From contig LNEX01000409.1 in the NCBI GenBank assembly GCA_001464165.1, positions 1 to 10,275 of the forward strand: a stretch of DNA of 10,275 bases, written 5' to 3'. Positions 23-7,737 of this stretch are shown here, piece after piece. The stretch is from a bacterium Ga0077546 (lineage in GTDB: Bacteria > Cyanobacteriota > Vampirovibrionia > Obscuribacterales > Obscuribacteraceae). Numbering within the stretch: the first letter of the stretch is position 1; every line of letters starts with the position of its first letter. The position numbers and the translations under genes are program-made. Under the pieces are notes generated by a model that worked only from the letters and a program-made list of their open reading frames with translations, had not been told where the DNA came from and searched no databases.

Positions 23-1213
23 TTAGGAGTCTTTAACAAGAGCGCTCAGTCTTTCAGCGAAACTCTCTGAAATTTTCGCAGGTTCAAGCTCAGAAATCTG
101 ACGGATATTGTAGACAGTGTCACGCACCACAGGCTTATAGCCAGATGAGGCAATCAACTCTTCCATCTTTTCTTGCGCTAACTGCAAAGGAGACTTGGCA
201 CCAGCGGCATGAGTGATTTTCTCTTCCATAATGGTGCCATCCATATCGTCAGCACCAAAGGAAAGAGCCAGCTGAGCTAACTGCACTCCTAGCTGTATCC
301 AATAGGCCTTAATGTGCGGGAAATTATCAAGCAAAATTCTTGAGATAGCCACATCTTTGAGCAAATCTGCTGGAGTTGGCTCAGTCACTTCATCTTGAAT
401 ATTGGTGCCATCGTAATAGCACTTCAACGGTATAAAGCACTGGAAGCCACCACTCTTATCTTGCTGCTCACGCAAAAGCAGCATGTGGTCTACTTTATTT
501 TCTATACTCTCGCTGATTCCGGTGAGCATGGTGGCATTAGATTTAAGACCAAGCTTGTGAGCGATGCCATGAATTTCTAAGTAAACAGCTGCTGGTGTCT
601 TCTTCACAGCCATGCGCTCACGCACTGCATCGTCAAATATCTCGGCACCACCACCAGGCATTGAACCTAAACCGCAGGCAATCAAACGAGTCAGAACTTC
701 TTCATAGCTAATGCCATCAAGATTGGCCAGATACTCTATCTCGACAGCTGTAAATGCTTTCATGTGAACATGTGGATACTTGTTCTTGAGCTGCTGTAGC
801 ACTTCTTCGTAGTAGGCCAGGTCACAAGCCGGGTTGAGACCACCAACCATATGAATTTCATTGATGCCTAAAGCGGCACCCTTTCCAGCTTCTTCTAGTA
901 CACGGTCAACGCCCCACGTGTATGCCTTACCCCTTTCTTCGGGATTGGCGTAGGAACAGAAGCGGCAAGTCTCAACACAAAAATTAGTGGGGTTGAGATG
1001 CATGTTATGAATGTAATAGACATAGTTCTCTTGGCCGGGCTCGGCTTTGACACGACGAGCGTACTCACCTAAAGCACCGATAGCAACTAAGTCGTCAGAT
1101 TGATAAAGTCGAATAGCATCTTCGCGACTGATGCGCTTGCCAGTGTAGACTTTCTCGGCCACATCAGCCAGGGGATGACCGGTGAAAATTCTATTTTCTA
1201 TGACAGCGGACAT
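23..1213 (-). CDS. mqnE: Aminofutalosine synthase MqnE (radical SAM)
   Basis: Radical SAM enzyme of the futalosine route to menaquinone. It joins the adenosyl radical to the enolpyruvyl-benzoate product of MqnA to give aminofutalosine, in the cytoplasm. Seen: the cluster-binding CxxxCxxC (C79, C83, C86) in TNFCVETCRFCSY, then GGLNP, MKAFTAVEIEYLA, SMPGGGAEIFDD, SNATMLTG and GGFQCFIPL, which are the blocks that separate MqnE from the related MqnC and CofH proteins. At 396 residues it is about full length for the family. An upstream in-frame GTG at 1219 exists, but its G overlaps the GAGG ribosome binding site (1219-1222) that sits five bases before the ATG at 1213, so the ATG is chosen. A 145-base gap separates it from rimJ upstream. 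No other menaquinone gene is visible in the window. Family assignment is very secure. Confidence 0.93.
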   Translation of the reverse strand: MSAVIENRIFTGHPLADVAEKVYTGKRISREDAIRLYQSDDLVAIGALGEYARRVKAEPGQENYVYYIHNMHLNPTNFCVETCRFCSYANPEERGKAYTWGVDRVLEEAGKGAALGINEIHMVGGLNPACDLAYYEEVLQQLKNKYPHVHMKAFTAVEIEYLANLDGISYEEVLTRLIACGLGSMPGGGAEIFDDAVRERMAVKKTPAAVYLEIHGIAHKLGLKSNATMLTGISESIENKVDHMLLLREQQDKSGGFQCFIPLKCYYDGTNIQDEVTEPTPADLLKDVAISRILLDNFPHIKAYWIQLGVQLAQLALSFGADDMDGTIMEEKITHAAGAKSPLQLAQEKMEELIASSGYKPVVRDTVYNIRQISELEPAKISESFAERLSALVKDS

Positions 1214-1224
1214 TGACACCTCTA
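1214..1224 (-). promoter_or_regulatory. Ribosome binding site that fixes the mqnE start
   Basis: On the minus strand the sequence reads AGAGGTGTCAATG. GAGG lies five bases before the ATG at 1213. The alternative GTG start at 1219 would be built from part of this Shine-Dalgarno sequence, so it is unlikely to be the real start. Confidence 0.7.
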
Positions 1225-4577: not shown

Positions 4578-5321
4578 CTACTTCGTAATCAAGCGAGCTG
4601 GTTGGGGATACTCACCAAGAAAAGTAATGGTGCCTGTTTTCAATTCGCGCATAGCTCCCACAATTTTCACTTTGCCTTGAAAGACAGCCTCTTTCACTAT
4701 AGAGCTGTTGCTGAGCATGTCGTTGGCCGCCAACCAGACATTGGCAATGGCAGAAGAATGTACAAGTTGGTCGCCCTTTTCGGCTGGATGACTTTTTCTG
4801 GCAGCCGCCACAGCTGGTGCTATTTTGCTCATAATGGTTGGCAAATTGCCTGGCAAAAGCGAACCATTCACAGCACTATCTACAGCAGCCTTAACCGCAC
4901 CACAGTCAGAGTGTCCCAAGACAATTACCAGGGGAATACCCAAATACTTGATGCCATACTCAATTGAAGCTAGCTCTGAAGTAGCGCAGACATTTCCGGC
5001 TACTCGCACCACAAACAATTCCGCCAAGCCCTGGTCAAAAACCATCTCCACCGGCACTCGCGAATCAGAGCATCCCAAAACAATCGCTACAGGCTTTTGA
5101 CCGTTAATTGCAGTCATTTCACGCCTGACCGAATTGACTTCAAAATGATTTGTTTTACCGGACAAATAGCGCTTGTTACCGCTCTTCAGCTCTTGCAATG
5201 CTTGCTCAGGGGTAGGCCTTGAGTAAGCCGGTAGAGCCACTAGCGAGACAAATAAAGAAAAGACAAGCAACGATATCGAGAATACCGAAACCAGCTTCTC
5301 TACCCAGAGATACTTTTGCAT
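4578..5321 (-). CDS. Nested internal ORF: secreted beta-carbonic anhydrase alone
   Basis: The ATG at 5321, in frame inside the fusion, has GAAGGA nine bases upstream and would give a 247-residue protein. Its N-terminus is a normal export signal: MQKYLWVEK with two lysines, about 20 hydrophobic residues, and ALPAYS before RPTPEQ as a likely signal-peptidase site. The mature part is a complete beta-carbonic anhydrase, expected in the periplasm or outside the cell. The same codons for MQKYLW also form the end of the ATL domain, so the two coding units share about 18 bases in the same frame. It may be the main product, with the fusion a readthrough form, or the two may coexist. The sequence alone cannot decide. 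Confidence 0.55.
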   Translation of the reverse strand: MQKYLWVEKLVSVFSISLLVFSLFVSLVALPAYSRPTPEQALQELKSGNKRYLSGKTNHFEVNSVRREMTAINGQKPVAIVLGCSDSRVPVEMVFDQGLAELFVVRVAGNVCATSELASIEYGIKYLGIPLVIVLGHSDCGAVKAAVDSAVNGSLLPGNLPTIMSKIAPAVAAARKSHPAEKGDQLVHSSAIANVWLAANDMLSNSSIVKEAVFQGKVKIVGAMRELKTGTITFLGEYPQPARLITK

Positions 5322-5627
5322 ATCCAGTTTTCCTTCAGAGTTGAACACTATTCCCTCTGCTTCAAGCAAACTTTGTTGTAGATCGGGCGGCATCTCGGTA
5401 TTGCGACTAGTGCTGATACCGCCAGTTGAGTTGATTACTCTATGCCAGGGCACATTTCCTGAGTGATATTTTTTATTAGCTTTATCGCTAGAGAGTGCAC
5501 GCAGAGCCCAGCCAACGCCTTGAGCACTAAGGCGCTTGTTTAGCAAATTCGAAATCAAACCATAGGTTAATATGCGGCCACTCGGTATGCCCTTGACGAT
5601 TTCATAGACTTCAAAGTAGACCGACAC
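4578..5627 (-). CDS. Fusion: alkyltransferase-like (ATL) domain + membrane-targeted beta-carbonic anhydrase
   Basis: One uninterrupted frame encodes two unrelated proteins. Residues 1 to about 108 (from the GTG at 5627) are an ATL domain: IPSGRILTYG, VGWALRAL, then PWHRVINS with Trp where the repair enzyme Ogt/MGMT has its alkyl-accepting Cys, and the family's closing LLEAEG...YLW. ATLs bind O6-alkylguanine without repairing it and hand it to nucleotide excision repair. A hydrophobic segment ending in ALPAYS follows. Then comes a full beta-carbonic anhydrase (CO2 to bicarbonate) with zinc and active-site motifs GCSDSR and GHSDCG (Cys, Asp, Arg, His, Cys). The frame can open at a GTG at 5678, overlapping the upstream stop. 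I prefer 5627 because it gives the typical ATL N-terminus, though neither start has a good ribosome binding site. It starts 20 bases after the Clp-N gene. A separate anhydrase start is likely at 5321. Confidence 0.85.
   Translation of the reverse strand: MSVYFEVYEIVKGIPSGRILTYGLISNLLNKRLSAQGVGWALRALSSDKANKKYHSGNVPWHRVINSTGGISTSRNTEMPPDLQQSLLEAEGIVFNSEGKLDMQKYLWVEKLVSVFSISLLVFSLFVSLVALPAYSRPTPEQALQELKSGNKRYLSGKTNHFEVNSVRREMTAINGQKPVAIVLGCSDSRVPVEMVFDQGLAELFVVRVAGNVCATSELASIEYGIKYLGIPLVIVLGHSDCGAVKAAVDSAVNGSLLPGNLPTIMSKIAPAVAAARKSHPAEKGDQLVHSSAIANVWLAANDMLSNSSIVKEAVFQGKVKIVGAMRELKTGTITFLGEYPQPARLITK
5319..5336 (-). promoter_or_regulatory. Internal ribosome binding site and start inside the ATL-carbonic anhydrase frame
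   Basis: The minus strand reads GAAGGAAAACTGGATATG. The purine core GAAGGA (5331-5336) is nine bases from the ATG (5319-5321). It is a better ribosome binding site than that of either possible start of the full fusion, which supports internal initiation. Confidence 0.5.
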
Positions 5628-5647: not shown

Positions 5648-6829
5648 CTAGGCTGAAACAGACCGCTTTACGAAACACTGCCGAATAGTTTCATCAAGTC
5701 TGCCTTTAAGCTTATTCAATCTCTCTGAAATTTCTAGTCTGCGCTTCTGTAGGTTGAGCAAATGCTTTCTTCGATGATCATCTAAAGCATCGGCAAAGAG
5801 GTCGTTAAGGGCAATTTCTTCACCCTGTGCCCACCATAGGTCTTCAACCACCGAACCAATCAAATCATGCTCTGCTTCATCGAGCATCTGACTAAACAAG
5901 CGATACTCATTGCTTAGCATAAACTCAATTGCGGTGCGCACTTCTTGCCTCAAACTTTGAGCAGCAGAAGAAACAATGGTGGCAATCAATTCTTTGTCTA
6001 AATTGCCAACACGCAAATTAAGCTGTGCCAATGTCTCTTCAAGTAGATAGCGACGGAATGCTATTTGATTGAGAAGAAAATCAGGGAAGTAGCCCGTGCA
6101 TACCATATGAACTATCTCACTGCGGGGAGGCAGTGAAGAAAGAGCATGACGACTACGGACAGACAAACCTTGCAGAGTGCTAACTGCTCGGTAATGTTTG
6201 TCAATTAGCTCTTTCAGCCCGTTGACCACCGCGCGGTTAAGACCAGGCACCTCGGCATTGCTTGAACCAGTATTTAAACTCTTGGCCATCAGCTGCATGA
6301 TTTGTCGACGCAGATAATCAATGTTGCCACCCAACTCTTCAATCATTTTTACAGCTGTCGATTCGCGCGCATCAAGAATGCCGAGAAGCAAATGCTCAGG
6401 GTTGATAAAGTTAAGACCAAAGAAAAGAGCATATTCATAGGCCCGATGCAAAGACTGCACAGTTAGATCACTAAGGCCATACGCCTTTCTGGTCTCACTA
6501 AAACTAGCAGTGGCGCCACCAGCACCAGTGGCAACCACCGGCAGACTAACAGATGGTAAACCAGATGAAAGGTCTGGCCGGCCTGAAAATGGCAATTCGG
6601 ATTCAGTTTTACCCTTAACTTGATTTTCCAATTCTTTGCTGACTGAGTCTTCGTCAATTTTCATTGTGGCAAGGGCTTCGTTAGCAACACCACCATATTC
6701 AGTCGCTAGGGCAGCCAGAATATGATCAGTACAGATATAGTTATGTTCGAAGTTTATGCACTCGTCTAAAGCAAGTTGCAACACTTGCAGTAGTGAATCA
6801 CTTGAACGCTCAAAAACAGAATCCAACAT
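5648..6829 (-). CDS. Stand-alone Clp N-domain repeat protein without ATPase
   Basis: A 393-residue protein with two Clp_N-like repeats, the substrate- and adaptor-binding module at the front of ClpA/ClpB/ClpC. Repeat one is at about 12-58 (HNYICTDHILAALATEYGG) and repeat two at about 124-180 (YEYALFFGLNFINPEHLLLG, then EELGGNIDYLRRQI). They are joined by a flexible Gly/Ala/Ser linker. No Walker A or AAA+ domain follows. Instead there are about 200 residues of helical sequence of no recognised family, ending in a charged coiled-coil-like stretch (354-384). It could act as an adaptor or decoy for a Clp chaperone, or use the fold for a different partner; this is inferred. It is probably first in a transcript with the ATL-carbonic anhydrase gene, 20 bases away, and is divergent from surE. 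Confidence 0.8.
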   Translation of the reverse strand: MLDSVFERSSDSLLQVLQLALDECINFEHNYICTDHILAALATEYGGVANEALATMKIDEDSVSKELENQVKGKTESELPFSGRPDLSSGLPSVSLPVVATGAGGATASFSETRKAYGLSDLTVQSLHRAYEYALFFGLNFINPEHLLLGILDARESTAVKMIEELGGNIDYLRRQIMQLMAKSLNTGSSNAEVPGLNRAVVNGLKELIDKHYRAVSTLQGLSVRSRHALSSLPPRSEIVHMVCTGYFPDFLLNQIAFRRYLLEETLAQLNLRVGNLDKELIATIVSSAAQSLRQEVRTAIEFMLSNEYRLFSQMLDEAEHDLIGSVVEDLWWAQGEEIALNDLFADALDDHRRKHLLNLQKRRLEISERLNKLKGRLDETIRQCFVKRSVSA

Positions 6830-6939: not shown

Positions 6940-7737
6940 GTGAGAATTTTAATTTCAAACGACGACGGGGTCTTTGCACCAGGTTTAGGCACGCTAGCAA
7001 GAGTACTAGCTGCCACTGGCGAGCACGAGGTCTATGTCGTCGCCCCCGATAGGCAAAGAAGCGCCACTGGTCACTCAGTCACGCTACACAAACCGCTAAG
7101 AGTAGAAGCAGTTGACCTCGAAGGCGGCGTCAAAGCCGCTTGGTCAACCACGGGAACACCCTCTGACTGTGTCAAATTGGCAGTCAAACAGTTGCTACCG
7201 CAACCACCCGATGTCATTCTCTCAGGTATTAATTCCGGCCCCAATCTAGGCACAGATGTGCTTTATTCGGGCACAGTAGCCGCTGCCATGGAAGGCGCCT
7301 TCTCTGGATTTCCCAGCATTGCCGTCAGTGCTCAGAAGAACAATCAGCTGGCCTTTAACCTTGCTGCTGATTTCATTGTCGACTTCCTCCGCGTCTTACC
7401 AAAAGCCCCCATGCCAAACCGTGGTCTATTCAATGTCAACGTTCCAGCCTGCAGTGCCACACAGCTGAAAGGTGTGCGCGTAACTGAGCTTGGCAAGCGC
7501 CAATACGAAGATTTGTTTGAGCGCCGCCACGACCCCAATGGCCGAGATTACTATTGGCTCTCGGGCCGCCCCATCGAAGAGGGTGAATCAGAACTGTCTG
7601 ACGTTTGGGCCTTAGCCAATGGCTACATAACGATCTCGCCGGTTTCTTTCAATATGACCGACCAAAATACACTAGCCAAGCTACATGAGATGATGACTGT
7701 CAATGAATTCTCCCACCACGTTCGATCTAGCAAATAG
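6940..7737 (+). CDS. surE: 5'-nucleotidase SurE
   Basis: Metal-dependent phosphatase that removes phosphate from nucleoside 5'- and 3'-monophosphates in the cytoplasm. Seen: MRILISNDDG at the N-terminus with metal ligands Asp8 and Asp9, Ser41 in RSATGHS, GTPSDCVK, and SGINSGPNLGTDVLYSGT with Asn98, followed by AAMEGAFSG. At 265 residues it is slightly above the usual length. It starts at GTG with AAGG five bases upstream (6931-6934), a good ribosome binding site. The 3' end overlaps the DUF4013 gene by 35 bases in another frame, which suggests translational coupling. In many bacteria surE sits with pcm, nlpD or rpoS, but none of these is present here. Confidence 0.95.
   Translation: MRILISNDDGVFAPGLGTLARVLAATGEHEVYVVAPDRQRSATGHSVTLHKPLRVEAVDLEGGVKAAWSTTGTPSDCVKLAVKQLLPQPPDVILSGINSGPNLGTDVLYSGTVAAAMEGAFSGFPSIAVSAQKNNQLAFNLAADFIVDFLRVLPKAPMPNRGLFNVNVPACSATQLKGVRVTELGKRQYEDLFERRHDPNGRDYYWLSGRPIEEGESELSDVWALANGYITISPVSFNMTDQNTLAKLHEMMTVNEFSHHVRSSK

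Follow-up and report, generated by a model that had tools for sequence, protein, structure and literature searches.

An ATL domain and a putatively exported beta-carbonic anhydrase share one conserved reading frame in Obscuribacterales, probably with a nested start for the enzyme

A single reading frame of the window (the whole stretch of 10,275 nucleotides that was analysed) joins a Trp-type alkyltransferase-like (ATL) domain to a beta-carbonic anhydrase (CA), with a hydrophobic export segment between them. On the strength of sequence comparisons, we consider it fairly probable that this gene is an in-frame fusion of an ATL gene and an anhydrase gene and that it carries two nested starts and one stop, which would provide an exported anhydrase and an ATL with a membrane tail.

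The frame is read on the minus strand, from 5627 to 4578, and its 349 codons, starting with GTG, contain no internal stop (Table 1). The strand was omitted in the earlier note on this DNA; frame 1 of the plus strand of 4578-5627 has many stops. An alternative longer ORF (366 aa) from a GTG at 5678 runs into the end of the upstream gene, and the start at 5627 (MSVYFE or VSVYFE) is used by 8 of the 10 full-length relatives, which supports it over the GTG at 5678. In the numbering of the 366-aa ORF, the Pfam family PF01035 matches residues 23-110 (60.6 bits, cut-off 27) and PF00484 matches residues 198-351 (132.9 bits, cut-off 25.7). The claim that a complete ATL domain, an export segment and a complete anhydrase lie in one frame is confirmed. 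The corresponding NCBIfam models score below their curated cut-offs: ogt gives 24 bits with the ATL part (cut-off 46.4) and PRK15219, a carbonic anhydrase family, gives 153.1 bits with the anhydrase part (cut-off 221). No Rfam family was found at gathering scores in the whole window. The AlphaFold model of the fusion has a mean pLDDT of 66.9 and a pTM of 0.51, the export segment being below 50; the junction is weakly modelled and no claim is made about the arrangement of the domains.

Table 1. Position of the fused gene, its parts and the adjacent upstream gene in the window
Feature	Position	Strand
Whole fused ORF: ATL, hydrophobic export segment, beta-carbonic anhydrase; 349 aa, GTG start	4578..5627	-
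ATL domain, residues 1-108; active site PWHR, full length as far as KYLW, arginine finger replaced by Gln36	5304..5627	-
Codons 92-106, lowest synonymous variation of the fused gene	5310..5354	-
AAGGA, Shine-Dalgarno-like, 9 bases 5' of the internal ATG	5331..5335	-
ATG of Met103, in frame within the fused gene; would start a separate anhydrase preprotein of 247 aa	5319..5321	-
Putative anhydrase signal peptide / membrane segment of the fusion, M103-S136	5220..5321	-
Mature beta-carbonic anhydrase (putative), R137-K349, then stop	4578..5219	-
Neighbouring gene with Clp_N repeats, ending 20 bases upstream of the fused ORF	5648..6829	-

The anhydrase half carries the zinc and dyad residues of beta-carbonic anhydrases, namely C186, D188, R190, H239 and C242, each conserved in at least 90% of the alignment; D188 and R190 would form the dyad. 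The enzyme had been described as complete with all its active-site residues, and so it is. The closest solved structure is that of Rv3588c (2a5v/1ym3), 1ym3 being found by Foldseek at 1.3e-13. When the model of the whole fusion was used with Foldseek, the 50 matches listed were all carbonic anhydrases, with no ATL among them.

The fused frame is not a peculiarity of one assembly. A search of 5.8 billion proteins, with 7996 candidates scored, gave 5382 matches, and among the best 120 of these the 10 full-length fused clusters outrank all others; a distant ATL-CA fusion could have escaped this search. The clusters are 83-100% identical, each has both Pfam domains, and by the listed counts they comprise 77 members. 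The taxa of the fused records include Candidatus Obscuribacterales (P0003 and L001), which sits within Candidatus Melainabacteria in the NCBI taxonomy, a Cyanobacteriota bacterium (L003) and a soil metagenome (P0010). Four fused genomes, all in one order, have no stop inside the frame (4/4), clusters and genomes being only partly independent samples, since the same assemblies may occur in both. The earlier note had proposed to look for homologues of the whole protein that keep one frame across the junction, and 10 clusters and 4 of the 53 genomes of the order do so. Its alternative of a sequencing error, or of a stop lost in a single genome, is ruled out because several assemblies, in the ten clusters and in four other genomes of the order, agree. 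An artefact of assembly or sequencing therefore deserves practically no credence: the fused records with visible titles are metagenome assemblies or bins, as an artefact would have it, but they come from several different assemblies and codon evolution is clean across the junction.

When the ATL part alone was used as query, 15 proteins of fusion-like length were obtained: 11 ATL-CA proteins (P0001-P0010 and P0024), one ATL-NUDIX protein and three with PF01035 only. The ATL-NUDIX protein (P0124, 291 aa) has its ATL domain joined to a NUDIX domain (PF00293). P0024 is an odd row of 202 aa, from a contig of 2123 bases, in which the export segment is scrambled and the internal Met is absent. P0003 and P0004 show a short STSRI-type repeat expansion, of differing length, in the ATL loop after PWHRVINSTGG.

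Relatives with two separate genes are found in the same order. Among 53 genomes in the order of G002, in which ATL and CA matches were accepted at E 1e-15, four have the fused frame, and in two (G005 and G006) the genes are separate neighbours. Matches at separate places are present in 20 genomes, 18 of them with the two on different contigs and two with a shared contig and distances of about 41 and 663 kb; separate short contigs are no proof that ATL and CA lie far apart, and many of the separately placed CAs (31-53% identical) may be paralogues. Eight genomes have a CA match only, eight an ATL match only, and 11 have neither. In G005 (locus L005) the CA gene starts at an ATG in a different frame, with an overlap of 8 bases at the ATL stop, and in G006 (L006) its ATG lies 7 bases after the ATL stop, again in another frame. 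Both CAs are 66-70% identical to the fused CA. The neighbouring genes (MqnE, GNAT, NurA, HTH, Clp_N, SurE, DUF4013 and two unnamed ones) occur in identical order at fused and two-gene loci, one of them being absent at the end of L004. The Clp_N protein has two Clp_N repeats and no further Pfam match, and its sequence identity among six fused and two-gene relatives is 97-100%, a conservation that exceeds that of its neighbours.

Close relatives with a stop between the two parts had been named in the earlier note as a sign that these are two genes. Such relatives do exist (G005 and G006), but only outside the fused group, so that they point to an ancestral state rather than to an error in the fused sequences. 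A single fork of the ATL tree (support 93/94) holds the fused rows, and they lie on one side of a branch (84/86) in a CA tree that combines ten fused rows with three unfused ones and seven of the outgroup. A larger midpoint-rooted CA tree, which took in the window and 30 places with loci, has the two-gene rows nested within the fused ones by a weak fork (81/90) and would also allow a fused gene to have split back into two. A single fusion event, favoured by the Leu found at position 103 in 22 of the 22 unfused ATLs examined, is the simplest reading; the trees by themselves do not firmly show a single origin or a direction.

Position 103 is the sixth-last residue of the ATL domain, and in all 10 full-length fused clusters it is Met. 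The unfused ATLs compared at this position are L100-L119, L005 and L006, out of 31 non-fused ATL places found; the nine left out include a second copy in G049, and L107 and L110 are identical over the compared stretch. At the nucleotide level, the internal ATG and the AAGGA that precedes it are identical in all five fused nucleotide sequences available, so that the conserved internal start codon and ribosome-binding site by which in-frame nested genes are recognized are present in 5/5. The computed pairing of AAGGA with the anti-Shine-Dalgarno sequence is -5.0 kcal/mol, close to the values for the Shine-Dalgarno-like sites that precede each CA start in the two-gene relatives G005 and G006 (-5.6 and -7.1 kcal/mol); pairing at the ATL start is weaker, from -0.4 to -4.0 kcal/mol. 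Pairing as strong as -5.0 kcal/mol, or stronger, is not rare at internal ATGs: 34 of 399 have it, five of these being the Met103 site itself. Nothing remarkable was found in RNA folding around the internal start.

A further sign comes from synonymous variation: at 0.10, codons 92-106 have the lowest value of the gene, whose mean is 0.40, and 0.35 would be expected after correction for amino acids; the homologous stretch of the two-gene pair has no trough (0.38 vs 0.45). In a test at this fixed place, which was picked after the ATG had been seen, 6 of 20000 random column sets were as low, and the scan-wide test is marginal (749/20000 shuffles, and 106/3000 in a neighbour-control scan). The control scan covered nine neighbouring genes, one of them in four species and the others in five. 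Ranked by z, the trough of the fused gene is the fourth among the ten genes scanned, three of the nine neighbours having stronger ones. The strongest of the ten is that of MqnE (z -4.12), and that of Clp_N (z -3.24) is similar to that of the fused gene; these two troughs count against the internal start. The SurE and DUF4013 troughs, also stronger than that of the fused gene, speak for it in that they lie at an overlap that holds the DUF4013 start and is partly dual coding. The trough at codons 92-106 is thus suggestive only as a sign of an internal start.

The control genes offer some observations of their own. The MqnE-like gene (23-1219, minus strand) has its trough at codons 273-289, with a synonymous value of 0.10 against 0.38 expected (4/3000 shuffles, five relatives), and that of the Clp_N gene (5648-6829, minus strand) is at codons 44-58. 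SurE and DUF4013 overlap by 35 bases in different frames (7703-7737, plus strand), and both have troughs there.

Taking the codon change, the AAGGA and the trough together, an internal start is the best reading of Met103, short of proof, and the anhydrase probably has a start of its own in addition to that of the long frame. This would have consequences for the interpretation of the conserved frame. Met103 shares the frame of the ATL and precedes the last residues of that domain, so that a stop or a frameshift after it would destroy the anhydrase preprotein too. The Met103 start, if used, would thus be enough to keep the frame open, and a conserved frame cannot be taken as proof that the fusion protein works.

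The segment between the two domains begins within the last residues of the ATL and reads MQKYLWVEKLVSVFSISLLVFSLFVSLVALPAYS, followed by RPTP. It has a hydrophobic core at about residues 112-132 and a proposed cleavage site, PAYS|RPTP, which was read by eye from the alignment. Signal-peptidase sites follow a -3/-1 rule, and PAYS, PAYA or PAHS precedes RPTP or KPTP in a way that keeps this pattern at the position where the unfused relatives have it. The segment evolves fast between the constrained ATL and CA domains, as judged from a dN/dS of 0.16-0.50 (computable in 4 of 10 pairs) and from a four-codon indel.

These data can be arranged in a sequence of events and products. The starting point would have been co-directional neighbours, an ATL gene and then a beta-carbonic anhydrase gene with its own signal peptide, in one Obscuribacterales lineage. 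An in-frame fusion at the ATL C-terminus would have removed the former ATL stop and the former CA start, and a change from Leu to Met six residues before the ATL end, with AAGGA upstream, would have supplied a new anhydrase start. Ribosomes starting at Met103 would make a preprotein of 247 aa, whose export and cleavage would give a carbonic anhydrase in the periplasm. Those starting at codon 1 would make an ATL-CA chain of 349 aa in which the signal segment may act as an N-in, C-out anchor; a cut after PAYS in this long chain would leave the ATL with a membrane tail and release an identical mature anhydrase.

Two other readings do without the internal start. In that of the earlier note, only the full-length product is made and remains uncut, as a bifunctional membrane protein with the ATL in the cytoplasm and the anhydrase outside. 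A frame without stops in 10/10 full-length clusters and in 4/4 fused genomes and the purifying selection on both domains agree with it, but it leaves the new Met103, the AAGGA and the synonymous trough without a role, the -3/-1 pattern is kept at PAYS, PAYA or PAHS in the same place as in unfused relatives, and the conservation of the frame would be forced anyway if Met103 is used. We regard such a protein as unlikely; the internal start with its Shine-Dalgarno-like site and the signal-peptidase-like motif suggest a separate anhydrase instead of a single tethered protein in two compartments. The second reading, to which we also give a low probability, is a fused precursor, again made only from the first codon, from which signal peptidase would yield a membrane-tailed ATL and a periplasmic anhydrase. 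Bacterial polyproteins cut by signal peptidase are exemplified by FbcH, the cytochrome b/c1 precursor, which is not used as evidence here. The conserved cleavage-like motif, the conserved hydrophobic core and the single frame fit a precursor of this kind, which leaves the change from Leu to Met and the synonymous trough without a cause.

Whether the ATL half matters can be judged from selection. Among fused rows, dN/dS is 0.026-0.067 for the ATL and 0.022-0.063 for the CA (rough Nei-Gojobori values, many of the synonymous distances being near or above 1). Both domains are under purifying selection, and that on the ATL half is strong, so this half is still being kept. The ATL part aligns with 3gva, which we take to be S. 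pombe Atl1, at E 4e-10 up to Trp106 of that protein, and is thus complete to KYLW. It also matches 2kif, presumably Atl of V. parahaemolyticus, over its length, ending at the same Trp. Proteins of the ATL type bind O6-alkylguanine DNA and recruit UvrA. At the position of the active-site Cys, all 27 ATL rows, fused or not, have Trp (PWHR). The arginine finger, which belongs to the HTH and flips the base, is Arg in 3gva, in 2kif and in the five Cys-type genes compared; its position is occupied by Gln in 26 of the 27 ATL rows and by Ala in the other one, in fused and unfused proteins alike. This finger is described as conserved between AGTs and ATLs (PMC10779285). Because it is replaced here by Gln or Ala, lesion binding by this ATL should not be assumed, and the description "DNA-lesion-sensing", used in the earlier note, fits the retained active-site Trp but not the finger. 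The ATL orthologues L100-L119, L005 and L006, as well as 5304-5627 of the window, keep the Trp and have no arginine finger, and the ATLs of this order without the finger may form an ATL subgroup of their own.

The one further PF01035 gene found in each of the four fused genomes encodes a Cys-type alkyltransferase (PCHR), and no second copy of the Trp-type ATL was found in them. As there is also no stop after the ATL, every ATL molecule would, on these data, have the export segment attached from the outset. It could be argued that the fusion is non-adaptive, that is, that almost all the anhydrase comes from Met103, the long chain being an unimportant by-product and the ATL dispensable. The separate Cys-type alkyltransferase in all four fused genomes and the lack of the arginine finger in 27/27 ATL rows would suit this, but the low dN/dS of the ATL among fused rows speaks for a half that is retained, and we hold this explanation to be very unlikely.

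The case has some general meaning. A gene fusion is seen beside its apparent earlier stage, with adjacent genes that overlap or nearly touch and then a single frame. As a rule for fusions, if the second protein can start in frame within the first domain, breaking the frame beyond that point would cost the second protein, and the lack of a stop in every relative does not prove a functional fusion. If the ATL half works, a DNA-repair-type domain would be forced onto the membrane. Tentatively, the long product may place a lesion-type sensor domain on the inner membrane, the anhydrase being sent to the periplasm from the chain or from the nested start.

No description of a natural ATL-carbonic anhydrase protein was found in the open-access literature searched, so the statement that no protein of this architecture has been described stands within these bounds. 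The ATL half resembles Atl1 (3gva) and Atl (2kif) in the match over the whole domain, the Trp in place of the catalytic Cys and the C-terminal end; it differs from both in the Gln at the arginine finger and in a C-terminus that continues into an export segment and an enzyme. Natural AGT/ATL fusions are known, as far as PMC10779285 describes them, in archaea with endonuclease V and in C. elegans, whose AGT-2 has a histone-like domain. They are alike in that an AGT/ATL C-terminal-type domain is fused to another protein, but here the partner is a putative exported CO2 hydratase rather than an endonuclease or a histone-like domain. Beta-carbonic anhydrases with a signal peptide (PMC5746736; Rv3588c) share the catalytic residues, the fold and the proposed periplasmic site, whereas the start proposed here lies within an ATL domain. 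Nested genes in one frame are also known, for instance those of two-polypeptide phage endolysins (PMC9430671), which have two starts and a shared stop; in contrast, what the short frame would yield here is a complete enzyme for a different compartment and not an isoform of one endolysin. In ASLtag-SspCA, too, an AGT-fold domain is joined to a carbonic anhydrase. That chimera is an engineered one (PMC7216122), made of an archaeal AGT-derived tag and a thermostable enzyme.
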